NCBI GenBank assembly: GCA_033065855.1
Contig: JAVXUO010001206.1
Coordinates: forward strand, 124,001 to 188,000
Length of the DNA: 64,000 nucleotides
DNA from: Escallonia rubra
Taxonomy: Eukaryota > Streptophyta > Magnoliopsida > Escalloniales > Escalloniaceae
Direction: 5' to 3'
Position 1 is the first letter of the stretch. Each line of letters starts with the position of its first letter. The position numbers and the translations under genes were made by a program. The notes below the pieces were generated by a model. The model saw nothing but the letters and a program-made list of their open reading frames with translations. It made no database searches and was not told where the DNA came from. Shown one piece after another: positions 9,804 to 48,150 of this stretch.

Positions 9804-9805
<2 letters not shown>

Positions 9806-10880
9806 GATCTGATCCGTTGATAGCGCTAGCAAAATAGGAGAAGTTGCAAACGCGATCTGGCCGTCCACCCTGAAAGGATAGACGGTCCAGATCTTTGTTT
9901 TGCATTTTTTTTAAGTACGTCCGCTACATTGTGTAGCGGACAACTTTTTGACAAAAATACCCTCCAGCTTAAAAAGAGTTCGTCCTCTACATTATGTAGC
10001 GGACTACTTTTCAGATTTTTTTCTCTTTCTATCATTAATGTTCTGACTTCTTTCTCTTTCTCTCTCTCCTTTATCTCCGTCCGCTACATTATGTAGCGGA
10101 CTAGTTTTCTGACCTTTTTTCTTTTCTGTCATTAATGTTCTGACTTCTTTCTCTTTCTCTCTCTCATTTATCTCCTTCTTCTGACTTCTCTCTCTCCCAT
10201 TTATCTCGGATAAGCTTCCATTGAGTCTATAAGTCTTCAATGTCCTGAAAATGCCTTGCTGATCTTTCCAGACCATCTGAGAATGACGTGCCTGCTCAAA
10301 TTCAAGAGAGGGGGAAGGAAACATCACAGCTTTATCTTTTGAACAAATCCCAAAGAAAAGGACCGCCCGCCCAGTCAGAAAAGAGAAGATGATCTACTAG
10401 TTCCCAGGCATATCTGGACCTAGAATCCAAATCTCTTTGAGACGAGCCTTCTTCTAATTTTTTCATAGTGACAGGAAGAAAGGCCAGTCAGTTCCCGGAT
10501 TCCCTTCTTCATACGCGGGAATTGTCCCGGATTCTCTTTTGCAGAGAGAATACTGATGAGAGAAAGAGAAATGAGAGAGAGAGAGAGGGACATAGCATTG
10601 ATGACAGAAAAAGGAGAGAGAGAGACAAACATGTCAGGAAAATAATGATAGAAATGAGAGAGAAAGAGAAACAAAGGTCTGAAAACTAGTCCGCTACATA
10701 ATGTAGTGGACGAAGCTGGAGGGCATTTTTGTCAAAAAATTATCCGCTACATAATATAGCGGACATACTTAAAAAAAATGCAAAAAAAAAAAAGATCTGG
10801 ACCGTCCATCCTTTCAGGACGGACGGCCAGATCGTGTTTGCAACTTCTCCTATTTTGCTAACACTATCAACAGATCAGCT

Positions 10881-10883
<3 letters not shown>
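9804..10883. mobile_element. Non-autonomous MULE (1,080 bp) related to the large MULE at 18925-28174
   Basis: Both ends begin GGGA(T/G)CTGATC and stay about 90% alike as an inverted repeat for over 200 bp, including AAAATAGGAGAAGTTGCAAA and GGACGGTCCAGATCT. The ends match those of the large MULE over about 95 bp with clear divergence, so it is a sister subfamily. Five palindromes of the same GTCCGCTACAT / ATGTAGCGGAC type lie at 9919, 9982, 10079, 10689 and 10742; the one at 10079-10101 is a perfect 23-bp palindrome. CT-rich stretches inside the left half face GA-rich ones in the right half. No transposase is encoded. The middle (about 10210-10450) is unlike the ends and might be captured host DNA. 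Flanked by (TA)n on both sides. Confidence 0.88.
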
Positions 10884-18440: not shown

Positions 18441-18868
18441 TCTTTACTGTAAGATTAATTAATTTTTTTAATTAGTAAGCTTTATTTATAAAAAAAATTA
18501 ATTCTAATCATTCTAAAATTCTAATCTAATCAACATACTAATCTATTAAGACTTTATTTTGACAATGATGTCCTTTAATAGTGTTCTCTAATATGACAAT
18601 TAAAACCATACCCAAAAAGAAATAACTTATGAGATTTAGAATAAAAACGTGATCTAACAATTGATTTTAATTTTAATAGGATCCTTATTTTTAAAATTAA
18701 TTACTTTTACTGGAGTAATGAGGATTTTCCGTAACCCCTATATAATTTTAAAACTAATTCTAATCATTATAAAATTTAACCTAATCAATATACTAACTTA
18801 TTAGGACTTAATATTGACTATTGTATCCTTAAAAGCACTCTCCAATATGAATATAAAAACTCATATAT

Positions 18869-18870
<2 letters not shown>
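18441..18870. repeat. AT-rich tandem repeat (unit about 200-250 bp), left of the large MULE
   Basis: Two diverged units. The landmarks AATTCTAATCATT, TATTAAGACTT / TATTAGGACTT, TTTTGACAATGATGTCCTT / ATTGACTATTGTATCCTT and TCTAATATGA / TCCAATATGA occur first at about 18500-18600 and again at 18750-18850. A third unit follows the MULE at 28235-28480, so the transposon landed inside this array. Confidence 0.75.

Positions 18871-18924
<54 letters not shown>
18871..18924. repeat. (TA)n microsatellite, left of the large MULE
   Basis: 54 bp of TA repeat, ending at the first G of the MULE. Together with 28175-28202 it masks any 9-bp target duplication, because any TA stretch would match. Confidence 0.95.
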
Positions 18925-18927
<3 letters not shown>

Positions 18928-19030
18928 AGCTGATCCCTTGACCGCGTAGGCAAAATAGGATATCTTGCCAGCGCGATCTGGCCGTCCATCCCGAAGGGAT
19001 GGACGGTCCAGATCACTTTTTTTTGCGGCG
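18925..19030 (+). repeat. Left terminal inverted repeat of the large MULE
   Basis: 106 bp starting GGGAGCTGATCCC and ending TTTTGCGGCG; identical in reverse complement to 28069-28174. It contains its own inverted repeat, CCGTCCATCCC / GGGATGGACGG around GAA, a plausible transposase contact site. Confidence 0.97.
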
Positions 19031-19039
19031 GACAAAGTC

Positions 19040-19272
19040 GTCCGCTACACAGTCTCGCGGACGGAAATGTTTACCATCTTGCCCTCGCTCCCCCGTCCGC
19101 TACACAGTCTAGCGGACGACATTCTTGGGCCAACAAAAAGTAGTCCGCTACACTGTCTAGCGGACGACTTTGTCCGTCAAACCACCCACTTCCCCCTGAC
19201 AGTTGTCACATCAGTCGATGCACGTCTGTTACTTTGTCGTTATCCCAGCGTCCGCAACACAGTGTAGCGGAC
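19040..19272. promoter_or_regulatory. Four palindromes upstream of the mobile-domain/protease gene
   Basis: Copies of the family palindrome at 19040-19062, 19095-19117, 19143-19165 and 19250-19272, each GTCCGC..GCGGAC around an ACACAGTCT-like centre. They lie between the left TIR and the gene start at 19677. The first three have matching copies in the right subterminal region. Confidence 0.85.
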
Positions 19273-19306
19273 GTTGGCAAGCATTCGAATACTTCTAAAC
19301 TTCTAT

Positions 19307-19378
19307 TCATTCCTTCTTCTCACAATCAAACTATTCCTTCTTCTCACAATCAAACTATTCCTTCTTCTCACGATCAAA
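19307..19378 (+). repeat. 24-bp tandem repeat, three copies, in the presumed 5' UTR or promoter
   Basis: Units at 19307, 19331 and 19355, CTATTCCTTCTTCTCACAAT followed by CAAA. Pyrimidine-rich, about 300 bp upstream of the start codon at 19677. Just downstream, GCGGCGTTGGCAAGTAGAT also occurs twice (about 19382 and 19498). Confidence 0.85.
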
Positions 19379-19676
19379 CCAGCGGCGTTGGCAAGTAGAT
19401 CGGCGCAATTTCTTTGCAAGAAATCCTTTAATCGTCTCATCAATCACGTAAGTTCACAAACTAATCCTTACTTTGTTCATAATCTAGAGTTCATCTTGCG
19501 GCGTTGGCAAGTAGATAGGCACTATGCTAGCGTTTGTCAATGTATATACATATATATTATATATGTGTATTGCGTATTATCTGATCACATGCTAGCGCTG
19601 AATATGCTAGCGTTGTATGTTTGGGAATGTTTACGCTTCCAACCTTGCCCTCTTTCCATTATTTCAGTTGCAAAAA

Positions 19677-22600
19677 ATGGATTTCAACCCTGGACCAGAA
19701 GATTCGTCCGTATTATATGACCAAGCATCCCATATCAGTACGCTCATATGGGATGGTGGAGTAAGATACTTATTTTATCGTTTATATCGTTTATTTTGCT
19801 TACGTATTTCAGTTGCGAACGTTGTATAGTGTTTATTTTGCTTAAATAATATTTATTAATTCGTAGGAAAGAGCACTTGTCAACACGGTAGAAGTAAGCG
19901 ATAATTTCAACGCCTGGAAATTGAACAGAACCCAGAAAAGATTACTGCGTGGGATTGGGTTTGGGATTTTCACGCATGGGCAGATCTTTCAACAACTTGA
20001 CCGGCACTTAATAGGTGCCCTTGTTGAAAGGTGGAGAAGTGAAACGAATACGTTTCACTTCCCTCTCGGAGAGATGACAATTACCCTAGAAGATGTAGGG
20101 TTCATCTTAGGGTTACCGGTGACGGGGCGGCCGGTAATAGCTCATCCGTCCGAAGCAACGAATAAGAGGACCGCTAGGGACTTCTTTACTTCGGTACCCC
20201 AGGATGGATTTAGCAGTGGTGGTATCAAGTTGAAGTGGTTGGTAGATACCTACGGGGTTTTGCCGGAAAACTATACGGGCCATGACCTTGTGCTGTACAC
20301 ACAAGCCTTCCTCTTGTGGGTGATGGGGGCAATATTATTCCCAACGACGTCGAAGAACACGGTCAGCGTCAAATATATACCGTTTTTGCGTAACCTGGCT
20401 GAGGTTGGGGATTATGCCTGGGGTGCAGCAACTCTTGCATACCTGTACCGAGCATTGCACAAGGCAACGAGGCCCGACTCCAAAGCGATATGTGCATGTC
20501 TCTCGCTATTGCAGGTATATCATACAATTCTTCATTACGTGCTCTTTGTTGTTTTTTTTTGTTGTTGAATGGACAATAAATGTTGACGATACTTTTTTCA
20601 ATGTCTTTGCTCTCAGGTGTGGTCTTATGAACACCTTGCTACCGGCGCACCCAGGCGTAGGGACGGAACAGATAATGTGTGGCCTCGGTTGTGCGCCTGG
20701 GAGTACAGCCGGAAGGAAACCCACTACGAGAGGAGAGACGATCCCCATCACAACATTTCATACTATCGGGGGGAGCTCGACTCGTTATCTCCTGGCCAGA
20801 TGCGATGGGCACCGTACAAACGTTTGGCGCGACGGGTGGGAGAGTCGTTCGTCTTCACGCTCTCCGGGTTGCAACGCACACCCCTGATCCACTTCGAGGT
20901 CGCAGAGTGGCAGCTGCCGGATCGCGCTATGCGCCATTTTGACTGCCTGCAGGGGTTGCCAGCCGGTGCGCCAGATATGAGGCTTAACAGGAACCCACCG
21001 GGTGTCGGACTGTTTGGCAGGGCGAATGCGCACGAGTTGTGCGCGCGTGAAATTGAGGTCTGGAATTCTTGGCAGGACACGCTGGCGGCCATTGTGTCGG
21101 AGCCTGACCCCGTCATCAGTATCGAACAGTACAACGAGTGGTACTACCGCATCACCCGGAGGAGAGTAGCTCCAGTAAGGTTTGAACGCGGGGAGAAGTA
21201 CCACCCTAGGGGTCAGATCGATGAGCACATGGCATACAATCTGGTAAGTTGCCCAACCAGTGCTTCTAATTGAACTTGATCATTCTAAGTGTGTACGAAG
21301 TTACTTATTTATTATCTCTCTGGATGTAGGTTAATGCCTCGTTCGCCTTCTTCCAGAAGTTGAGCGAGCGGAAGGATTTGGTGGATGCCATGGGCGAGGA
21401 GCTTCGCCAACAGGCTGAAGCGTTGGCGCTTGGCTGCGGGAATTTTTTGCGGCAAGCATCGGGACAGCCAAACCCGGGAATGGGTTATCCGGGGTGGCAG
21501 CGGCCGTTTGTTCCCGAGGGATGCACCGATCCCTCGGGACAGACTTCGGGAGTGAGCCAGGGATATGGTTTTCCCTCTGTACCAGAGATGGCTGGTGATT
21601 GGGGACCGCCAAGCACCATGGGCCAGGCTCAAGCGCCGTGGGATTATTACAGTGCGCCCTCCTTCTCTTTACGATTGGATTCGGAACCCCAACCCCTCTC
21701 CCAGAGTCAAGTCACGCAAGACTGGATTTTCGGAAACATCAGTCTGCCCATTGTCCCGTGGGCAGGACCATCTATTGCCGAAGGCGGGCAATATCCCCCC
21801 GTCGACCCCCCCGAAGGAGTGCAATATCCCCCCGTCGACCCCCCCGAAGGAGTGCAATATCCCCCCGTCGACCCCCCCGAAGGAGTGCAATACCCCCCGG
21901 TCGACCCCCCCGAAGGAGTGCAATACCCCCCGGTCGACCCCCGAGGGCAATATCGCAAAGGGCATCCGTTGAAGCCCCTAAAGCCGCAGAAATGCCAGAT
22001 AATCAGAGAGCGTTATTTTAGCGGCGTCCCGCATGACCAAGCGTTGTATAGTGTGGATCATCCGGAGGGCATGGATTACATTTGCTCGTGGGGAGAACTG
22101 GCCTCGCTGGCTCCGGGGAGTTGGTTAGACACCGGTGTCGTCTCCACCTACGTGGAGATTCTGAGGGAAAGGTGTCGGCAGCAGCCGAGCTATCCGGCCG
22201 TTTTTCTGTTCGATGCCTTTTTTCATCAGATGCTAGTGTCTGAATGGCAGGAGTGGGTCGAACATAGGGGGAAGAAAAAGTTGGCCCAGTGGAGACCGTC
22301 CTTTAACCTAGGAGCATATATTAATAGGGATAGTCCGGTGAGCGCAAGTGTTGCCGATGTGTTTCTAATCCCATTTCTAGGGCACAGCCACTGGTACTTG
22401 GTTTGCTACTCCCCAACAACTAAAGTCGTATCGGTGATCGACAGTCTCCACGACGATACTCATCAGATGCCTGTGCTGCACATGTACAAAGCCCAATTGG
22501 ACGCGTTGGTAATATTACGATCGCTGTATAATTCTCTGATTCTATCTTGCCATAAATTTTAACTCGTGTCTTACGCCATTTTCTGTTTCTCGCAGAATAT

Positions 22601-22907
22601 TTTTTGTGCAATGGTCAATCGTGCCCGTGAAGTCCCCGTACCGGCGCGGCCAAATCTCAATAGGCGATTGAAGAAGAGGAGGCCCAAGCAACGTAACACT
22701 TCGGACTGCGGCGTCTTCCTTTGCATGTACATGGATTTCATTTGTCGCTCTGAGAGCCTCAAGGCGGCCGTCTGGAGCCAAGCAGAAGTTGAAGGCTATA
22801 GATATAGAATGGCTTGGCAAATTATGAAAGGCCGGCCTAGAGCGGTTAGGTTTATAGAAAATCCGGCTAATGACGAGAATCTGGCCCAACATGCGGACCC
22901 CAGTTGA
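19677..22907 (+). CDS. Plant mobile domain - Ulp1-type (C48) protease fusion of the MULE
   Basis: Five exons: 19677-19760, 19867-20514, 20617-21243, 21330-22508, 22596-22907. All introns are GT-AG and phase 0; the protein is 949 aa with no internal stop. The start MDFNPGPEDSSVLYDQ is the usual opening of plant mobile domain (PMD) proteins. The PMD fills residues about 20-450 (RLLRGIGFGIF, FHFPLGEMTITLEDV, GFILGLPVTGRPV), the domain shared by MAIN/MAIL1, PP7-long-form-like proteins and many plant transposons. A Pro-rich linker with five 11-residue repeats (QYPPVDPPEGV) follows. The C-terminal third is a C48 cysteine protease: His807 in GHSHWYLV, Asp824 in VIDSL and Cys884 in NTSDCGVF form the expected triad. 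Ulp1-family enzymes remove SUMO or related tags; the true substrate is unknown. It runs rightward from the left TIR, away from four palindromes. Domain calls are firm; its role in transposition or anti-silencing is inference. Confidence 0.92.
21789..21953 (+). repeat. 33-bp minisatellite in exon 4, five copies
   Basis: Units start at 21789, 21822, 21855, 21888 and 21921 and encode QYPPVDPPEGV; the last unit is degenerate (QYPPVDPRG). It is in frame and forms the linker between the mobile domain and the protease. Confidence 0.95.
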
Positions 22908-23087
22908 AATTGTATCATAACAGTAGTTTTTACATAAATCGTACGCAATTGGTGTGATTTGATTTGTGTTGTCGTTGGTGTGATTTGATTTGTGTTGATT
23001 TCTGTTGTCGAATACTGATTTTTCTGATGACGTAAAATGAAGACCAAATTTTTCTAAGTGTTGATAACAAAAGTTTCTGCTGCGTCG

Positions 23088-23930
23088 TCCGCTACATTGT
23101 CTCGCGGACGTAAAATGAAGACCAAAAGTTTCTGCTGCGCCGTCCGCTACATTGTCTCGCGGAGGTAAAATGAAGACCAAATTTTTCTAAGTGTTGATAA
23201 CAAAAGTTTCTGCTGCGTCGTCCGCTACATTGTCTCGCGGACGTAAAATGAAGACCAAATTTTTCTAAGTGTTGATAACAAAAGTTTCTGCTGCGTCGTC
23301 CGCTACATTGTCTCGCGGACGTAAAATGAAGACCAAATTTTTCTAAGTGTTGATAACAAAAGTTTCTGCTGCGTCGTCCGCTACATTGTCTCGCGGACGT
23401 AAAATGAAGACCAAAAGTTTCTGCTGCGCCGTCCGCTACATTGTCTCGCGGAGGTAAAATGAAGACCAAATTTTTCTAAGTGTTGATAACAAAAGTTTCT
23501 GCTGCGTCGTCCGCTACATTGTCTCGCGGACGTAAAATGAAGACCAAATTTTTCTAAGTGTTGATAACAAAAGTTTCTGCTGCGTCGTCCGCTACATTGT
23601 CTCGCGGACGTAAAATGAAGACCAAAAGTTTCTGCTGCGCCGTCCGCTACATTGTATCGCGGAGGTAAAATGAAGACCAAATTTTTCTAAGTGTTGATAA
23701 CAAAAGTTTCTGCTGCGCCGTCCGCTACATTGTCTCGCGGACGTAAAATGAAGACCAAAAGTTTCTGCTGCGCCGTCCGCTACATTGTCTCGCGGAGGTA
23801 AAATGAAGACCAAAATTTTCTAAGTGTTGATAACAAAAGTTTCTGCTGCGCCGTCCGCTACATTGTCTCGCGGACGTGAAATGAAGACCAAAAGTTTCTG
23901 CTGCGCCGTCCGCTACATTGTATCGCGGAC
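23088..23930. repeat. Array of 13 palindromes with two alternating unit lengths (78 and 55 bp)
   Basis: TCCGCTACATTGT starts at 23088, 23143, 23221, 23299, 23377, 23432, 23510, 23588, 23643, 23721, 23776, 23854 and 23909. Spacings are 55 or 78 bp. The long unit has 23 extra bases (TTTTTCTAAGTGTTGATAAC region) between two CAAA motifs. Most copies have ..TCTCGCGGA.. in the right arm, which shortens the palindrome. The array separates the 3' ends of the protease gene (+) and the B3 gene (-). Long minus-strand frames across it are repeat artefacts. Confidence 0.95.
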
Positions 23931-24049
23931 GTAAAATCCAAATTTTTCGAAGTGTTTATAACAAAAGTGTATTTCAAACGACACAATTAAGCGAGGAAAA
24001 ATTTCGAAACACAATCAACAAGAACTCAAATAATTTTATTAATCATAAA

Positions 24050-24513
24050 TTAGGGTTCACATTGGGGGAAAGAAATTTTTTCACAAGTGCTCCGATCAAA
24101 GATTACAACTTCAAAATCCCACCACCCAAGGTGTTCAAATACTACAAAGTCCCCGAGTTCGAGGCCATGCTGGCGCACGAAGACGTTCCAACCCTCTGCG
24201 AATTGCTTTTTTTGGGGTCGGCCGGGCTTCAGCTTGATTTCAACCTGCCATGCCCCCTTGCGGCTATATAATCTTGCACTGTCATGAATTGTTGTAAATT
24301 GATTGGTGAAGGCTTCCGGTATGTCCTAACAAACACAATACACAAAAAATAGGTTAGTTTTTAACCAAAAGAGTTAACACACGAAAATACAGAGATAGAG
24401 GGATGGCATACAAGTTCATTCTCAAACCCCGGCATCATGACTTTGAAAAAGTGTTTGCCTGCCAGGTGCAAGTTGCCAATAAAATCGTAGGTGGTCTCCG
24501 ATCCAGAAGCCAT
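24050..24513 (-). CDS. B3 DNA-binding-domain protein encoded by the MULE
   Basis: Two exons on the minus strand: 24513-24412 (34 codons) and 24325-24050 (91 codons plus TAA), joined over an 86-bp GT-AG intron in phase 0; 125 aa. The spliced product is almost all B3 domain: HFFKVMMPGFENEL / DIPEAFTNQF at the first strands, then GAWQVEIKL, FAEGWNVFVRQHGLELGDF, VVFEHLGWWDFEVVIFD and CEK, the standard order of a REM-type plant B3 domain. B3 domains bind short DNA sites in the nucleus. There is no other domain, so it is shorter than most host REM proteins. It lies inside the MULE, with five family palindromes 150-380 bp upstream and the 13-copy array just downstream. I infer it is an element protein, possibly reading those sites. 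It may also be a captured host gene kept intact. The splice junction is predicted by eye. Confidence 0.88.
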
Positions 24514-24660
24514 CGAGGTCGGCGTTGAGGGGGGGACGGTTTATCGCCGGAGTTGTGGAGTATTGGCCTGGGCTAGATGTTCCAGACAGAGAGAGCAGAG
24601 AGACTGTTGGACTGATAACAGCCGATTGCCCGATATGATTAATTTATATCATATAGACTT

Positions 24661-24887
24661 CTCCGCTACATTGTATAGCGGACATGAAAGGCCAAAAGTT
24701 ATGACGTCCGCTATATTATATAGCGGACAGTAAAGAAGACCAAAAGTTTGCCTGCTCTAACGTCCGCTACATTGTATAGCGGACGTACAAAGACCAAAAG
24801 TTTTACTTCGATGCCACCCGTCCGCTATACAATATAGCGGACGTAAAAGACCAAAGTCAATGATGTCCGCTACATTGTATAGCGGAC
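24661..24887. promoter_or_regulatory. Five palindromes upstream of the B3 gene
   Basis: Copies at 24661-24683, 24706-24728, 24762-24784, 24820-24842 and 24865-24887. They have full 8-bp arms GTCCGCTA and TAGCGGAC with AT-rich centres, less decayed than the array copies. Spacing is 43-58 bp. They lie between the B3 start codon (24513) and the 3' end of the transposase gene (25039). Confidence 0.88.
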
Positions 24888-25038
24888 GGGGATTACAAAA
24901 TAAAAGAAAAACCTCGTAATAAAGACTTTAGATTTGATTCGATGGCCTCTCATAGGTCCATTTTAAAAAAATCCCAGTACCCCGTCGAAAAATTATCCCT
25001 CGAATATTATTACAAATGTCATAAAGTTGTACAAAAAA

Positions 25039-27336
25039 TTATAGGTCCACTGCAGCTTGTTCGTCCTCATCTTCGGCGTCACCTTCTTCCCCGTCTTGCA
25101 AACCCCTTGAACTTATCCCCAGTGCCTTGTAATGGTTCCGCTTGTCGTGGTCGGTCATTTTGTTGCACAATGCACACCTTCGCAGCTTTTTAGGTTGAGT
25201 TGCCGTTTCAATAGAGCTTTTCATCCGCGTAGATCTCTTGCGGCCTTTCGTTTGCGATATAATTGGATCCAACAAACGGATATCATTGTCGTCTTCCTCC
25301 TCCGGCTCGTCATCTTCTGATACCCCCGTCGTAGGCTCGGTGTCAATCGCATTGGTGACTGAAGCTGCTTCCAACTGGTCGACGATGGGCTCTTGTTGCT
25401 GAGCTACCTCGAGGAGATGTTTATAACCGACCATTGTAGCAGCACCTTTTACGGACAAACGGGTGAACATCGTCACCAGATGATTATACCGCAGCGTCTC
25501 TGATTCTTCAAAGTCAGTATACGGGTGCTCCGGAAAGGAAATGGTACCGTGCAACCTGTTTGCACCTTTTGTCCACCGTGGCAAGACGTATTTATCGGGG
25601 ATTGTCCTGATATTCTTCTGGGTGAAAAACCGCAGAACGTGTCTACACAGGATGCCATGGAACTCAAACTTCTTGCAAACACATGTCACCGAGTCCGTCA
25701 ATGTGTCGTGGCTCACCGTATACATTCTGCGCAGCTTCTCAGGGACTAGGTCATTCACGAGCGAATAAACCTTGTACTCACGCGTAGACATTTCTGCCAC
25801 CTTGTTTATACTGTATCGTCCGGATTTTCGCAGCTCTACTTGGTATAGCAAGAAGATCTCCTTCGTATAGACTTTGGCACCGTTCATCTCCAGCGGGGTC
25901 TCGAGCAACGTTCTCCTTTGTTTGTACGTTGTTGCAAAGTCGGCAGCCCTTTCTTTTACGAACAACGAAGCTACCGCTTTTTGTGCGGATGCAACGAAAG
26001 TCTTCAAATTGGTAGCTGTACCCACATAACTATCGAACGTGGCATTCATGGATTCACTCCTGCCCGTCGTTTTCATGCCCGCTGAAAAATACCTCCTCGT
26101 GTAAACGCCAATCCATTGCTCTTTGCGCTCGTACAAGTTCTGGAGCCACTCGTTGTCTTGCAATGAGTAATCCCGAACAAGCTTTTCCCACCTCTCCTCG
26201 AATTCCTCAATCGTTAACGACTTGAGGACGCACTTGTCAAAATCCTGTTTAAAGTCTTGATACTTTGCGTACACGTGATGCAGCCGTTCCGGGTATTTGT
26301 TGCTTATGTGCCAGGTGCACAAGTTGTGCCGAGTGTCTGGGAAGACGGTCGCAATAGCCTTCTTCATTGCCAAATCTTGATCGGTGATGATCACTTTGGG
26401 TGCTTTGAAGTTCATTGCTTCCAGCCACGTCCTAAACAACCATTCAAAAGAACTCTCGGTCTCGTCCCTTAACAAGGCGAACCCGAACAGGATGGAGTGA
26501 TAATGATGATTGACCCCCGTGAAAGGGGCGAACGGCATCGAGTACTTGTTGGTACGGTATGTGGTGTCGAACGTCACGACATCCCCAAAATGCTTATAAG
26601 CAAGCCTCGAACGACCGTCGACCCAAAAAATTGTGCTAACTCGATGCTCGTCGTCAAGTTTATAATCGAAGGTCAACTGCGGGTCCTCCATCTGCATCCG
26701 TTTCAATAGGCTCATTGTGGCTTGAGCATCATTGAGGTCATACGCGGCTCGTCTATGGGTTCGGACCGCGTTACGAACGTCTGTCGTGTTAAAGGTCAAA
26801 TTTTGAATTCCCCCAGCCTGTTCAGCAAGAACATTAATCATGTCGGTAGGTCCTAGTCGCGCATTGCTCATTGTCTGAATCAGGCTCCTTGCGACCTTAC
26901 CCATCTTCTTGTGTTGATGCATCTCACTCACCTTAGAAGGGGTTACTAACGGGTGATTGTGTGCCAGTTCCAGGCTGGTAATAAGCCAATGGTCTTGTTT
27001 GGGTTTGTAGCTTACGAACATCTTGACCTGGCAATTTGTGCGCTCAAAGCAGTCCCGTCTTCTACGCGGATATCCTATTTCGTCCTCACTGTCATCATTG
27101 CCTACACATGTCTCATTTTGCACTGGGTTTCTGCTCCTATGGCACTCGTATAAGCGAGAGCATATCTTTCTCGTTATGGTGCTCGTTCTTGAAGTCTTTA
27201 TTCTAATGCCAAAACCAACCCTCAATGAATACGCTCGAAAACAATCTTCAGCTTCTTCCAACGTAGCAAATGTTCGTCCTAGATACGGATCACTAGCATC
27301 TACGGGGACGTTGGAGCTCGACACGAAATCAGACAT
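25039..27336 (-). CDS. FAR1-type Mutator-like transposase
   Basis: Single coding exon, 765 aa from ATG at 27336-27334; the frame extends 15 codons further but without an ATG. Residues about 25-130 are a FAR1/WRKY-GCM1-like zinc-binding DNA-binding domain (KICSRLYEC, NCQVK, HNHPL). The MULE transposase core follows, with DDE candidates Asp257 (VTFDTTY), Asp319 (IITDQD) and Glu428 (GRSESMNATF), and CTWHISNKYP between the last two. A SWIM zinc finger is intact (Cys552, Cys554, Cys564, His566). The C-terminus has an acidic stretch and a CxxC..H..H knuckle (CALCNKMTDHDKRNH). Host FHY3/FAR1 genes derive from such transposases, but this copy lies inside perfect TIRs, so I call it the element's own enzyme. 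A possible 5'-UTR intron runs 27705-27395 (GTAAG..CAG). The gene faces the right TIR. Confidence 0.95.
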   Translation of the reverse strand: MSDFVSSSNVPVDASDPYLGRTFATLEEAEDCFRAYSLRVGFGIRIKTSRTSTITRKICSRLYECHRSRNPVQNETCVGNDDSEDEIGYPRRRRDCFERTNCQVKMFVSYKPKQDHWLITSLELAHNHPLVTPSKVSEMHQHKKMGKVARSLIQTMSNARLGPTDMINVLAEQAGGIQNLTFNTTDVRNAVRTHRRAAYDLNDAQATMSLLKRMQMEDPQLTFDYKLDDEHRVSTIFWVDGRSRLAYKHFGDVVTFDTTYRTNKYSMPFAPFTGVNHHYHSILFGFALLRDETESSFEWLFRTWLEAMNFKAPKVIITDQDLAMKKAIATVFPDTRHNLCTWHISNKYPERLHHVYAKYQDFKQDFDKCVLKSLTIEEFEERWEKLVRDYSLQDNEWLQNLYERKEQWIGVYTRRYFSAGMKTTGRSESMNATFDSYVGTATNLKTFVASAQKAVASLFVKERAADFATTYKQRRTLLETPLEMNGAKVYTKEIFLLYQVELRKSGRYSINKVAEMSTREYKVYSLVNDLVPEKLRRMYTVSHDTLTDSVTCVCKKFEFHGILCRHVLRFFTQKNIRTIPDKYVLPRWTKGANRLHGTISFPEHPYTDFEESETLRYNHLVTMFTRLSVKGAATMVGYKHLLEVAQQQEPIVDQLEAASVTNAIDTEPTTGVSEDDEPEEEDDNDIRLLDPIISQTKGRKRSTRMKSSIETATQPKKLRRCALCNKMTDHDKRNHYKALGISSRGLQDGEEGDAEDEDEQAAVDL

Positions 27337-27848
27337 TGTGAAACAAGAGCTGTGTAGAAATAGACTGCGCTTAACAATCAAATGGCATTTCTAACTGAAA
27401 ATATTACCTAAAAATTAGGATGGCAAACATACGGTATGCATAATCTCAAAAGTGTCTCCAAATTAACAATTACTAATTTAAATTTATTGAACATAACAAA
27501 TTTAAATTAGTAAGATAAATAGACGAATTCATCATGCCAAAAAATCGAATTAAACTATAATGAATTAAATATAAAGTTAACAAATTATACCTTTTTGATG
27601 AACATCATGTCTAGAACATCACAAAAAATCTAGAGTATAAAATCACAAATTGATGAATACAGTGACAAATTTCTAGAACATCAAGAAAACTTGAAGCAAA
27701 CTTACCTTGCTTGAGCGAAGCTTGAAGCAAGTGTTACTCGAAGCTTGAAGGCAGCTGAAAATGGAAGCGAGTCTGAAGGAGAAGAAAATTGTGCGGAAAG
27801 AATTGAGTAGAAGAAAATTGTGCTGAAAGAAAGGGGATGGGCAATACT

Positions 27849-28059
27849 GTCCGCTATACTGTGTAGCGGACAGAATTGCCGACATCAAGTCACACTTGTG
27901 TCAGACAAGTCACAATTGTGTCAGAATGACAGTCGTCCGCTGGACAGTGTAGCGGACTACTTTTTGTCGCAGGTTGTTTTCGTCCGCTAGACTGTGTAGC
28001 GGACGGGTGAGCGAGGGCAAGATGGTAAAAAGATCCGTCCGCGAGACTGTGTAGCGGAC
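27849..28059. promoter_or_regulatory. Four palindromes upstream of the transposase gene
   Basis: Copies at 27849-27871, 27935-27957, 27982-28004 and 28037-28059, in the right subterminal region. They mirror those at the left end in order and spacing. A decayed pair of direct repeats (TCACAATTGTGTCAGA / TCACACTTGTGTCAGA) lies at about 27890-27930. Confidence 0.85.
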
Positions 28060-28068
28060 AACTGACAG

Positions 28069-28171
28069 CGCCGCAAAAAAAAGTGATCTGGACCGTCCAT
28101 CCCTTCGGGATGGACGGCCAGATCGCGCTGGCAAGATATCCTATTTTGCCTACGCGGTCAAGGGATCAGCT

Positions 28172-28174
<3 letters not shown>
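28069..28174 (-). repeat. Right terminal inverted repeat of the large MULE
   Basis: Exact reverse complement of 18925-19030; ends GCTGATCAGCTCCC-type with terminal CCC followed at once by (TA)n. Confidence 0.97.

Positions 28175-28202
<28 letters not shown>
28175..28202. repeat. (TA)n microsatellite, right of the large MULE
   Basis: About 28 bp of TA repeat starting at the base after the right TIR. Confidence 0.95.
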
Positions 28203-28234
28203 ATGTAGAAGAAAAAATTATGTTACAATTGAAT

Positions 28235-28480
28235 TTAAACAACTTATGAGACATAGAATAAAAAAAAAAAAAAATCTAACAATTGATTTAAATACTGATG
28301 GGGTCCTTAATTTTAAGTTTTTTTTAAAATTTTGCAAGAATACTGAGGTTTGTATTCATACGCTTGGTATAATTTAGAAGTTAATTTTAATCATTTTATT
28401 AGGACTTGATTTTGATATTATATTCCTAAAACTACTCTTTAATGTGAACATAAAAATTAAAATATCTAAGAAACGAAAAT
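28235..28480. repeat. AT-rich tandem repeat unit, right of the large MULE
   Basis: Matches the left-flank unit (18621-18860) in direct orientation: AACTTATGAGA, ATCTAACAATTGATTT, TATTAGGACTT, TTTGATATTATATTCCTAAAA and TTTAATGTGAACATAAAAA appear in the same order. Confidence 0.75.
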
Positions 28481-30614
28481 AACATTTAGAAGGAAAAAAA
28501 AGGGCTTTCTAATTATTAGACTAATTATAAGCTTTGGAGCTTAATTTTGACTATAATAGAGTCGATTATAACTTTGAGTGGTTATTGTCATGTCCATTCA
28601 ATAACACTTATATGAACTAATATTCACCCTATGATTGTTAGCTTAACATAATAATATTTGCAAAATTTTACAAGCCAACAAGAATAACCCGACAAAAGTT
28701 GGTTGGTATATAAAAGTTATATTATGTTCTGATAAAATAATTATCGATGGAAAAATACCATTAAAGGCATTTATTGGATGTAAGGACTATAGTTTTGTAG
28801 CAAATAGTAGATAAGATGTGAAAAGAAAAATCAAACCTTTTAAACTTAAACTTCTTTTAAACTATACTTTATCGATGTACTTACATAGCAAGTATTAGTT
28901 TTGACTAAACACCTCAAAAACACTCCAAAATAAGGACACATCTTTGTTGATTGAACTTCCTTACATGTATTTTACAAAAAATAGAAAAAGACATATATAT
29001 AAAATTATTCAATATTATTTAATTCGATATTATTTTGTAATTTGTTAAAATTATTTTGGCAAAAGTGAATAACTTTCTTGAAATTAATGTGACGTCTATA
29101 AGTCCTATAAATTTTTACTTAATCGCTATTAACACCTATGAGGATATGTTTGGTCATTGGCACCTTAAAAATTCTCTAAACCTAAAGGATAGGATTTATA
29201 CGTAAGCATTTAGAATTAAAATGGATATGTAAAAAGTACCACCCTTTTTTTTATCACAATTATATTTGGTAATTAGGATGTTATTCTATTACTCTAAATG
29301 CTAAGTACATAATCATTCGAAAGGATGCTTGACGATGTAAAATAAAAGTTTAAAGAATGTAAATATCTACGACGGCACGGTAATAAAATCTACTCATCGT
29401 TCTTTCAACTTACAATTCAAAGGAAATAAAGCAAATATATATACATATGCAAATATCACGCAAGAATTGCATGACAATCTGATGAAGACTTCAACTTTAA
29501 ATGTGTACGAGACGAATAAATGTTATGTTGCATATCATGTTTGTATCTGAATAAGTTAATGATTTCTTGAAACAATGATTCATGAAGAAGATAAGAAAGG
29601 ATTATGACATTTACGATTCCAAAGATAAAGAACTTTCAACCTAACTTTTCAAGCTAAAAGACTTGATTTTGAAAACCTTATTATATTTGAAGAAATATCT
29701 GACTTAGTAAACATGCTTATTAGATACTACATTGTTTAACGTTGTTTAAATTTTGCTCAACAATTTGCTTAGTACGAGGTTTTGATTTATCCTATTGAGT
29801 CATGTTAGATAAACTTTTTAAGCTTTATATAATTATCTCATGAAATAATTATTATTTTCTCTGTATACTTTATTGGTGGATTCCATTTGCTTCTGAAAAC
29901 GCCGCATCATGCTTATTAATTAGTGGAGCTAATTGACTTTCATTCACATGCTATAAGAAAAAATATGGACCAAGATCCATCAAAATCAAACTAAGATGTA
30001 ATTAATGTAATGGGAAACCCATTGAAATGTACAATTTATTTTTAAAAGATACGTAGAAAATAATAAAAACGTCTTATGCAATAACAAATTTGATCTAAAT
30101 ATGTTTTCCGCATACTTTTATCAGTGCAATTTGCTTTTTACTTTTTTATGTACTAAATAAACTTCTAGGTTTTGTTCATTTATAGTTACCAAATCAGAAT
30201 TAGCAAATATGCCGAAGACATTACTTATTGATATTTCACCACAAGGATTAATTTATTTCATTAAAAGAAAGTTCACCACAAAAATTGAAGTGACTATTTT
30301 TGATGAAATAATTATGAAATTGTGAAATTGTGCAATCGATTTTATTATGCAATTCAAAACTACTAAAATAAATGATTATTAATAGAACCGTCCCGTGCTT
30401 GGCAAGGTTTCTGGACTAGTATTTTTATTATTGATTGATAGTTATATTTGGATTTGTTTATACTTATATTTATATTGATATATGCAAGGCCGAATAAAAC
30501 CATGTAACACCAAAAAGGCCACTTCAAATTTAAACTGATAAAAGTTGAGTTATTAAGGAAGTCTGTGTGCAAGTGCAAGTATGGCCATAGACATGGCCGC
30601 AATCCCCTTTCTCG
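28481..30614. other. AT-rich intergenic DNA
   Basis: No gene or transposon end recognised over about 2.1 kb. Only short frames. Confidence 0.4.
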
Positions 30615-46720: not shown

Positions 46721-46779
46721 GTAGCCATGAAGATACCGTGTACCAGCCTCAATCCAGTTTTTGGTGTCCTTAGACGATC

Positions 46780-48150
46780 AATTGTCGTTACCATTGGCTT
46801 CGGCTTCTAAGGATGCGTCTTATGGCAAAGCAACTAATTGTTGTCACCATTGGCTCCGGCTCTTAGTCATAAGCCTTTAGTGTGTCTAGACGACCAATCG
46901 TCGTTATTGTTAGCTTCGGCTTCTAGATACGCTTTTCTCCTCATTCGCTTAAGTGACCAATTGTTGTTACAATTGGCTTCGGCTCTTAGGCAGTGAGATT
47001 TTCCAACTCCAGTTCCAGTTCTTCTAACTCCAATTTTCGGTCTCTTTAGATAACCAATTTCCGTTACCATTGGCTCTGGCTTGTAAGGATGCACCTTATG
47101 GCTAAGCGACCAATTGTTGTCACCATCGGCTCGGACTCTTAGCCACAAGCCTTTAGTGTGTCTAGACGACCAATCGTCGTTACTTTTGACTCTGGCTTTT
47201 AGATATGTTTTTCTCCTCATTTTCCTAAGCGACCAATTGTTGTTATTATTGGCTTTGGCTCTTAGACAATGAGTTTTTCTAGCTCCAGTTCCAGTTCTAG
47301 CTCTAGTTTTCAGAGTGTCTAGACGACCAATTGTCGTTACTATTGGCTCCAGCTTCAAGATATATTTTTCTCCTCATTTGCCTAAGCGACCAATTGTTGT
47401 TATTTTTTGCTCCGGCTCTTAGACAATGAGTTTTCCATATTCCTAGACAACTAATTGTCGTTACTATTGGCTCCAACTTTTAGGCATATGTCCTTATGGC
47501 TAAACGACCAATCGTCGTTACTATTGACTTCGACTATTAGTCATAAGCCTTCGGTGCATCTAGGCGACCAATTATTGTTACCATTGGGTCCGGCTCGTGG
47601 ATGTGCTTTCATGATCATGTTTAAGCGACCAATTGTTGTTATTGTTGGCTGTGTTACTTTTGGCTTTGGCTTCTAGGATGCACCTTATGGCTAAGCGATC
47701 AGTCGTCGTTGCTATTGGCTCCGGCTTCTAGATACCTTTTTTCCCATATTCCTAGACAACCAATTGTCGTTACCATTGGCTCCGGCTTCTAGGTGTATAC
47801 GCCTTATGGCTAAGCCACCAATCTTTGTTACTATTGGCTCCGACTCTTAGTCATAAGCCTCCAGTGTGTCTAGATGACCAATCGTCATTACTATTTGGCT
47901 TCGGCTTCTAGATACGCTTTCTTCTCATCTGCCTAAGTGACCAATCGTTGTTATTATTGGCTCCAGCTCTTAAAGCAGTGAGATTTTCCAGCCCTAATTT
48001 CGGTTCTAGCTCTTATTTTCAGTATCCATAGATGATCAATTGTTGTTACCATTGGCTTTGGCTCCAGACAAGGGTCTACTTCACTTTCCCATGTAATAAT
48101 GTTCGATGACCAATCATTGTTACTATTGGCTCTGGCTTCCAACAATATCC
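46780..48150. repeat. Degenerate tandem array of about 21 GACCAATTGT..ATTGGC units
   Basis: A 35-40-bp core, GCGACCAATTGTTGTTACC followed by ATTGGCTCCGGCT, recurs about 21 times between about 46784 and 48103, every 45-115 bp. Each core has CCAAT and ATTGG about 10 bp apart as an inverted pair. Separators (CATAAGCCTTTAGTGTGTCT, CTTTTCTCCTCATTTGCC) also repeat, giving a higher-order pattern. Frames on either strand are repeat artefacts. Confidence 0.85.

Follow-up and report, generated by a model that had tools for sequence, protein, structure and literature searches.

A TA-microsatellite-targeting MULE of Escallonia rubra with PMD-C48 and B3 genes and palindrome arrays, a candidate anti-silencing element

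Structure and gene content of the element

A 64,000-nt stretch of Escallonia rubra DNA (the whole of which is called the window below) contains, at 18925..28174, a complete autonomous-type Mutator-like element (MULE) of 9,250 bp (strand not applicable), recognized by its terminal inverted repeats (TIRs) and by near-identical full-length copies elsewhere in the genome. An earlier reading of the letters alone (the sequence-only reading) had placed a complete 9.25-kb MULE here, with identical 106-bp TIRs, three open genes with consistent splice sites and repeated palindromes; its coordinates were right to the base, and each of these features was recovered. The TA-microsatellite target and the 33-bp coding repeats described below were not among the features it named. 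The left TIR (18925..19030, plus strand) and the right TIR (28069..28174, minus strand) were defined by end-to-end comparison; the terminal 106 bp of the two ends are exact reverse complements, base 107 is already mismatched, and the inverted repeat including the adjoining TA comes to 223 nt at 96% identity. The (TA)n tracts on the two sides (strand not applicable) are 54 nt (left, 18871..18924) and 28 nt (right, 28175..28202) long. Each TIR also has its own inner inverted repeat with 11-bp arms (CCGTCCATCCC ... GGGATGGACGG) and a 3-base centre, at 18982-19006 and at the mirror position in the right TIR.

The first gene, PMD-C48, lies on the plus strand and has five exons and 949 codons, encoding a plant mobile domain (PMD) followed by a Peptidase_C48 domain. 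Exon 1 (19677..19760) is followed by exons 2 (19867..20514) and 3 (20617..21243), which hold the PMD, exon 4 (21330..22508), which holds a linker and the start of C48, and exon 5 (22596..22907), which holds the protease Q...C block; exons 2 to 4 were assigned with Pfam. The linker contains 33-bp coding tandem repeats (21778..21942, plus strand), with 3-7 units among the 12 complete copies described below. For Pfam, PMD-C48 was submitted from exon 2 onward and B3 as two separate exons. The PMD-C48 matches over this part were PMD (1.6e-73), Peptidase_C48 (8.4e-14) and DUF7745; DUF1985, which we take to be the VANC-type protein domain, was not among them. In the alignment with SENP2, the C48 of the window has kept His, Asp, Gln and Cys, presumably the catalytic residues. 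The B3 gene is on the minus strand and has two exons (exon 1, 24412..24513; exon 2, 24050..24325) and 125 codons; exon 2 alone matched the B3 profile of Pfam (3.1e-09; 37.1 bits against a gathering score of 30.1). Every intron in the element genes is GT..AG. The transposase (25039..27336, minus strand) is a single exon with one open reading frame of 765 amino acids, in which Pfam found FAR1 (1.2e-12), MULE (PF10551, 3.9e-33) and SWIM (5.4e-05).

The transposase domain and the long, identical TIRs are those of a MULE, and the window copy, with its intact transposase, falls outside the definition of a Pack-MULE (captured gene fragments, no transposase). FAR1 together with SWIM, which we take to be the mark of the Jittery group, places the transposase in the Jittery/FAR1 type by its domains only. 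An Rfam scan of the window gave no match at gathering score. That the structure is a complete TA-targeting FAR1-type MULE with two accessory genes is close to certain.

Copies in the genome and insertion into TA microsatellites

The genome (a 566-Mb assembly of 3,222 contigs) was searched with the TIR, and 42 matches were obtained from the best 40 of 1,559 candidates; 41 of the 42 agree with the query at each of the 106 bases. Since almost all are 100% identical, the copy set is biased to young copies. Eighteen further copies (20 stretches, two of the copies being in two pieces each) were compared with the window copy. Thirteen of these 19 are of full-length size, and 12 of the 13 contain complete versions of all three genes; in nine of the 12, every frame is open. 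The thirteenth, L014/L015 (C439:1948-13223, 11.3 kb), has PMD-C48 and B3, a broken transposase and, as its right end, a second inverted PMD-C48 side; from its sequence it seems to be two elements recombined or nested. One copy (L026) is cut off by the contig end, and five are internal-deletion derivatives, of which L010 and L023 are without much of PMD-C48, L018 is without B3 and the transposase, and L011 and L017 are without most of the interior. We rejected the idea that the TIR pair of the window copy comes from two separate insertions, because this pair is found around the same content in other full-length copies; L014/15 does look like such a chimera, with a PMD-C48 side at either end.

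Scanning for the exact 18-bp tip, which is less biased, gave 581 matches genome-wide (control, 0). Among 100 listed tips, 24 are single and 76 form 38 pairs, of which 20 span 8.3-11.3 kb (full-length size), 17 span 1.35-7.1 kb and one spans 17.7 kb; six of the 20 were inspected at the sequence level, and five were complete, the sixth being L014/15. A majority of copies lacking the protease and B3 genes was thus not seen, in agreement with the sequence-only reading, which had taken the three proteins as one element-encoded set. The same set appeared from the side of the transposase. All 59 transposases scored (the best of 4,782 candidates) have 765 amino acids and no stops, and when they were compared with the best 150 B3 and the best 150 PMD places (the PMD list ends at 97% identity), 33 had both genes in the expected order and strand, 19 PMD only, 2 B3 only and 5 neither; hence 54 of the 59 have PMD and/or B3 in the expected place among the matches listed. 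On C155 (L021), B3 is present in the sequence though not among the matches listed. Of the B3 exons at 100% identity, 50/61 have a listed PMD exon at a distance of 1.5-4.4 kb; for the other listed B3 exons the figure is 19/89.

The copies are very similar to one another. The mean pairwise divergence of the transposase is 4.0 of 2,298 nt (0.17%) in 12 intact copies, that of B3 is 0.16% (13 copies) and that of PMD-C48 exons 1-3 is 0.08% (13 copies); the C48 half is more divergent (0.35-1.4%, window copy against five copies). With 7e-9 substitutions per site per year, the divergence of the transposase would correspond to an age of the order of 0.1 million years, and on this sequence evidence the family is a recent burst of an autonomous-type MULE. 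Because the copies are so alike, the family may still be moving, in which case transposition, expression and anti-silencing could be tested directly and not on fossils.

Six alternating T/A letters precede 520 of the 581 tips (261 TATATA and 259 ATATAT), and the alternating run at the tip has a median of 29 nt and a range of 5-72 nt (43 tips with at least 80 nt of flank; 38 without repeats of the same place). Judged from these flanks, the element inserts into TA microsatellites in the manner of MuTAnT. MULEs make target duplications of 8-11 bp (usually 9 bp), the length of which is unreadable inside TA tracts. The parity can be read from the phase of the flanks: in (TA)n, the flanks of an insertion differ in phase after a duplication of odd length and agree in phase if the duplication is even or absent; TA that belonged to a symmetrical TIR would likewise be in phase. 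Flank phase was determined in 67 pairs among 200 listed of the 520 tips (100 per scan), and was opposite in 61 and the same in 6 (binomial p 1.5e-12). The opposite phase points to a target duplication of odd length and fits 9 bp, although only the oddness is demonstrated. The window copy belongs to the same-phase minority; counting it, 14 of the 16 copies with both tips visible have opposite phase, and the rearranged L014/15 accounts for one of the six same-phase pairs. That (TA)n is a part of the element ends rather than of the target is very improbable: the TA flanks of 90% of the tips could be cited in its favour, but the phases should then agree at both ends, and the tract lengths vary; we rejected it by the phase test.

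Two known systems resemble this targeting, as far as the available parts of the sources go. MuTAnT/AutoMuTAnT of Medicago (PMC4486113) is likewise a MULE in (TA)n with a putative autonomous element and many short non-autonomous relatives; the AutoMuTAnT transposase is similar to Jittery, and 9-nt duplications were found at MuTAnT sites outside perfect (TA)n. AutoMuTAnT differs in its length of 4.9 kb and its single open reading frame, and no PMD-C48, B3 or palindrome array is described in that part of the text. SaTar/AgS-MULE of guayule and rice (PMC5907723) is microsatellite-targeted and forms end-to-end arrays, with which our locus L023 (C85:53530-60990), where nothing but TATATA separates the tips of two elements, and the (TA)n-joined L060 (see below) may be compared. 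An alternative recombination mechanism was proposed for SaTar/AgS-MULE, in which duplications are often lacking, whereas the flank phases of the present family indicate ordinary staggered insertion; the available text of that paper has no mention of B3, Ulp1, plant mobile domain or palindrome. The phase test recovers a duplication parity that the TA tracts hide, a point left open for microsatellite-targeted MULEs.

Palindromes, selection and the proposed anti-silencing module

The palindrome TCCGC-N11-GCGGA occurs at 26 sites in the element and at none in the 53,200 nt of the remaining window (the relative at 9804-10883, described below, excluded). Near-palindromes of any sequence number 19 in the element, against a mean of 3.6 (maximum, 7) in 20 dinucleotide-matched random sequences. 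The 26 sites comprise four left subterminal palindromes (19041..19271), an array of 13 between PMD-C48 and B3 (23088..23929; mostly 55- and 78-bp units), five between B3 and the transposase (24662..24886) and four right subterminal palindromes (27850..28058). Genome-wide, the 21-bp pattern has 14,837 exact matches (0 for the reversed pattern as the control); among the matches listed the places are clustered, and the core varies from cluster to cluster. The array turns over fast: it has 8-24 units among the 12 complete copies (13 in the window), and its dominant core differs between copies. In the sister copy L059 the layout is unchanged and the core is a different one, TATACAATGTA. The array varies in this way among copies whose transposase, B3 and PMD exons 1-3 differ by 0.08-0.17%, which is expansion and joint change of the kind reported for the targets of VANC (PMC5735166, in the part available); non-coding motif arrays of this behaviour are a VANC-like character. 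Non-autonomous relatives retain palindromes near both ends.

We put at about one in two the probability that the palindromes and the two accessory genes make up a motif-directed, VANC-like anti-silencing module in this TA-targeting FAR1-type MULE. The address label would be the palindromes of the two ends together with those of the intergenic array; B3, or PMD-C48 itself, would read it, and PMD-C48 would thereby be brought to palindrome-bearing copies, autonomous or not, and would there remove SUMO or otherwise disarm silencing, much as VANC does for VANDAL elements. The sequence-only reading had likewise proposed B3 as a DNA-reading partner and PMD-C48 as a possible counter-silencing or SUMO-related factor, and the architecture and the behaviour of the array agree with the VANC precedent. 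In favour of the module stand the three complete genes in 12 of the 13 full-length copies, the 59 transposases free of stops, the palindrome enrichment and array turnover, the four retained protease residues and a dN below dS (values below). The binding protein, the protease substrate and the anti-silencing effect are putative here, and we infer anti-silencing as the best-supported function, at approximately even odds against the two readings weighed below taken together. The closest model is VANDAL/VANC of Arabidopsis, including KIU, a VANC that bears Ulp1 (PMC5735166, PMC10398659 and PMC13317346, each in the part available). There, as here, the accessory protein is encoded by the MULE, and the element has non-coding, motif-rich tandem repeats that expand, contract and change together (PMC5735166); VANC proteins have variable regions with peptide repeats (PMC5735166), comparable to the PMD-C48 linker, and some have an Ulp1 domain. 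VANDALs have degenerate TIRs or none, in contrast to the long identical TIRs, the PMD joined to C48, the separate B3 and the palindromic sites of the present element.

A different assignment of the same parts, which we regard as possible though less probable, is that B3 and PMD-C48 assist transposition, the subterminal palindromes binding a complex of transposase and B3 and the internal array serving for titration or regulation. As such a helper role would have it, eight palindromes, all of the end types, remain in each of the derivatives L011 and L017, from which most of the genes are gone, and several lie near each end of both short elements of L060; FAR1 and B3 are, moreover, both named DNA-binding domains. 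Yet the largest cluster, with its 8-24 units, is internal (PMD-C48 to B3) and is absent from L011 and L017, and the 106-bp TIR, where one would look for transposase sites, contains none of the 26 TCCGC palindromes, although it does have a different inverted repeat of its own.

It is unlikely that B3 and PMD-C48 are merely captured host genes that hitch-hike in the style of a Pack-MULE and are intact only through the youth of the burst. In its favour, captured host pieces are present in relatives (ARGONAUTE fragments and, in L060, a phosphoesterase-family fragment), the transposase, PMD exons and B3 differ by only 0.08-0.17% between copies, and B3 has too few changes for a test. On the other hand, PMD-C48 and B3 are spliced, complete genes and not fragments, and B3 exons are free of stops in 137 of 150 cases among the matches listed, down to 89% identity (the list is ranked by score). 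PMD-C48 also occurs in an older relative of 61% identity (L063, on contig C9), against which the last C48 exon has a dN/dS (ratio of nonsynonymous to synonymous rates) of 0.53 in the window copy (Fisher p 0.03) and of 0.50-0.62 in L059, L061 and L062. L059 has long DNA blocks 86-89% identical to the window; its transposase and PMD parts are 98% identical in protein, its C48 half is lower, and its B3 differs at 2 of 125 residues. It is damaged: codon 676 is a stop, the transposase is frameshifted, Ns are present, and Tyr replaces the catalytic His. L061 and L062 retain all four protease residues. Against L059, dN/dS was 0.44 for the transposase (17 changes) and 0.11 for PMD exon 3 (7 changes, which is few).

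Several observations weigh against the anti-silencing module. The C48 half has a dN/dS of 1.75 against L059 (39 changes), 1.00 against L062 (which has a stop) and 0.69 against L061 (no stops), and rapid change of C48 outside the conserved block could also mean relaxed constraint. This half evolves faster than PMD exon 3 (Fisher p 0.003, with rounded counts, L059) and not significantly faster than neutral (p 0.23); positive selection is not claimed, since the value of 1.75 comes from the damaged L059 and the intact L061 gave 0.69. For B3, dN/dS against L059 is 0.51 from three changes, too few for a selection test, and the predicted model of exon 2 (from a single sequence) had a mean predicted local distance difference test score (pLDDT) of 43, too poor for use. 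The young transposase copies have 5 synonymous and 8 amino-acid variants, and PMD-C48 is frameshifted in 3 of the 12 complete copies (L019/20, L024 and L025). Finally, the older relative on C9 has an ARGONAUTE fragment where B3 would be expected and Tyr for the Cys of C48, so that B3 and an intact C48 may not be common to the whole of the wider clan.

With respect to novelty, the sequence-only reading had known of no family with all three proteins. This stands for B3, as no B3 partner in a MULE was found in the literature searched (most subscription journals were outside the search); the other parts have each been published, the TA-targeting MULEs mentioned above being joined by Ulp1-MULEs and PMD-MULEs. 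In the Ulp1-MULEs (Kaonashi, and those of melon, rice and grapevine; PMC2528002), an Ulp1-type sequence lies beside the transposase in either orientation, Jittery-like families included; the part of that text available mentions no plant mobile domain and describes no B3 partner, whereas the present element has both. PMDs have been captured by MULEs (PMC5418596, in the part available) as here, fused there to the transposase and here to C48, and an anti-silencing use of the captured PMD was speculated on. A PMD-Ulp1 fusion in a MULE was described in no title or abstract among the papers listed, under the same restriction on journals. TA-microsatellite targeting and Ulp1 and PMD accessory genes, known apart, are joined here in one element with a B3 gene and a palindrome array.

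ARGONAUTE fragments and other relatives

By the places of its palindromes, a further element of approximately 9.5 kb with a different core was located on contig C9, with the last PMD-C48 exon (L063) beside its array. At the expected place of B3, L064 (351 bp) contains an N-terminal part of ARGONAUTE and no B3; it matched AGO10 among the PDB sequences (4.9e-08) and Pfam ArgoN (2.1e-05, below the cut-off). Judged from the coordinates, the array, L063 and L064 probably form one element. The fragment has at least 150 matches in the genome (the best 150 of 726 candidates), with identities of 86-95% if the self-match is set aside, and none in the window or in loci L001-L062. When up to 2 mismatches were allowed, a degenerate 27-base word that encodes VRANHFLVQ gave 652 matches genome-wide (control, 2). 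Of the 100 matches listed, none of which has a mismatch, 78 make up 39 convergent pairs no more than 2 kb apart (median spacing, 238 nt), such as those at C333:5776-6018, C306:4225-4464, C374:88880-89044 and C25:129778-130019; there are no divergent pairs, one pair of same-strand neighbours and 22 single words (the C9 place included). By these word positions among the matches listed, the ARGONAUTE fragments in relatives are mostly inverted repeats. On contigs C1-C533, 11 of the 24 B3 places that are not identical to the window have a listed ARGONAUTE word within 1.5 kb 3' of B3, seven of them as an inverted pair; no listed word lies within 2.5 kb of any of the 13 B3 places with 100% identity. 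Two places on C2974 (281558-283697 and 337062-339592), where the fragment match (95% and 86% in protein) lies upstream of same-strand ArgoN matches, are among the likely host ARGONAUTE genes; one of these ArgoN matches contains stops when read without introns.

These relatives allow an extended form of the anti-silencing reading, which we hold to be doubtful: a modular anti-silencing transposon in which palindromes mark the copies, a B3 reader and the PMD-C48 protease would act on chromatin, and, in the sister subfamily, the inverted repeat of the ARGONAUTE N-terminal exon just 3' of B3 would give a hairpin RNA and hence small RNAs against the host ARGONAUTE. In rice, miR820, a small RNA of a transposon, is directed against the silencing gene DRM2. 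If the extended form were true, RNA silencing would be turned against its own effector; and if the inverted repeats are expressed, whether transposons turn RNA interference on the silencing machinery would be directly testable.

Shorter relatives were also observed. The ends of a 1.08-kb non-autonomous relative in the window (9804..10883) match the TIR at 81-82% identity; this relative has palindromes close to either end and is flanked by (TA)n on both sides. L060 (C9:42400-46300) consists of two short relatives joined by (TA)n, each with several palindromes near each end; in the second, no element gene was detected and a phosphoesterase-family fragment (PF04185, 1.4e-30) was found, a Pack-MULE-like capture. 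The flanks of the window copy (18500-18870 and 28203-28560) share a direct-orientation repeat of 58 nt at 78%, and sequence from these flanks is found again next to L060, from which we infer that these insertions share a host repeat. Outside the element, the window has tandem repeats at 1198-1449 (87-bp units) and at 46753-47842 (276- and 61-63-bp units).

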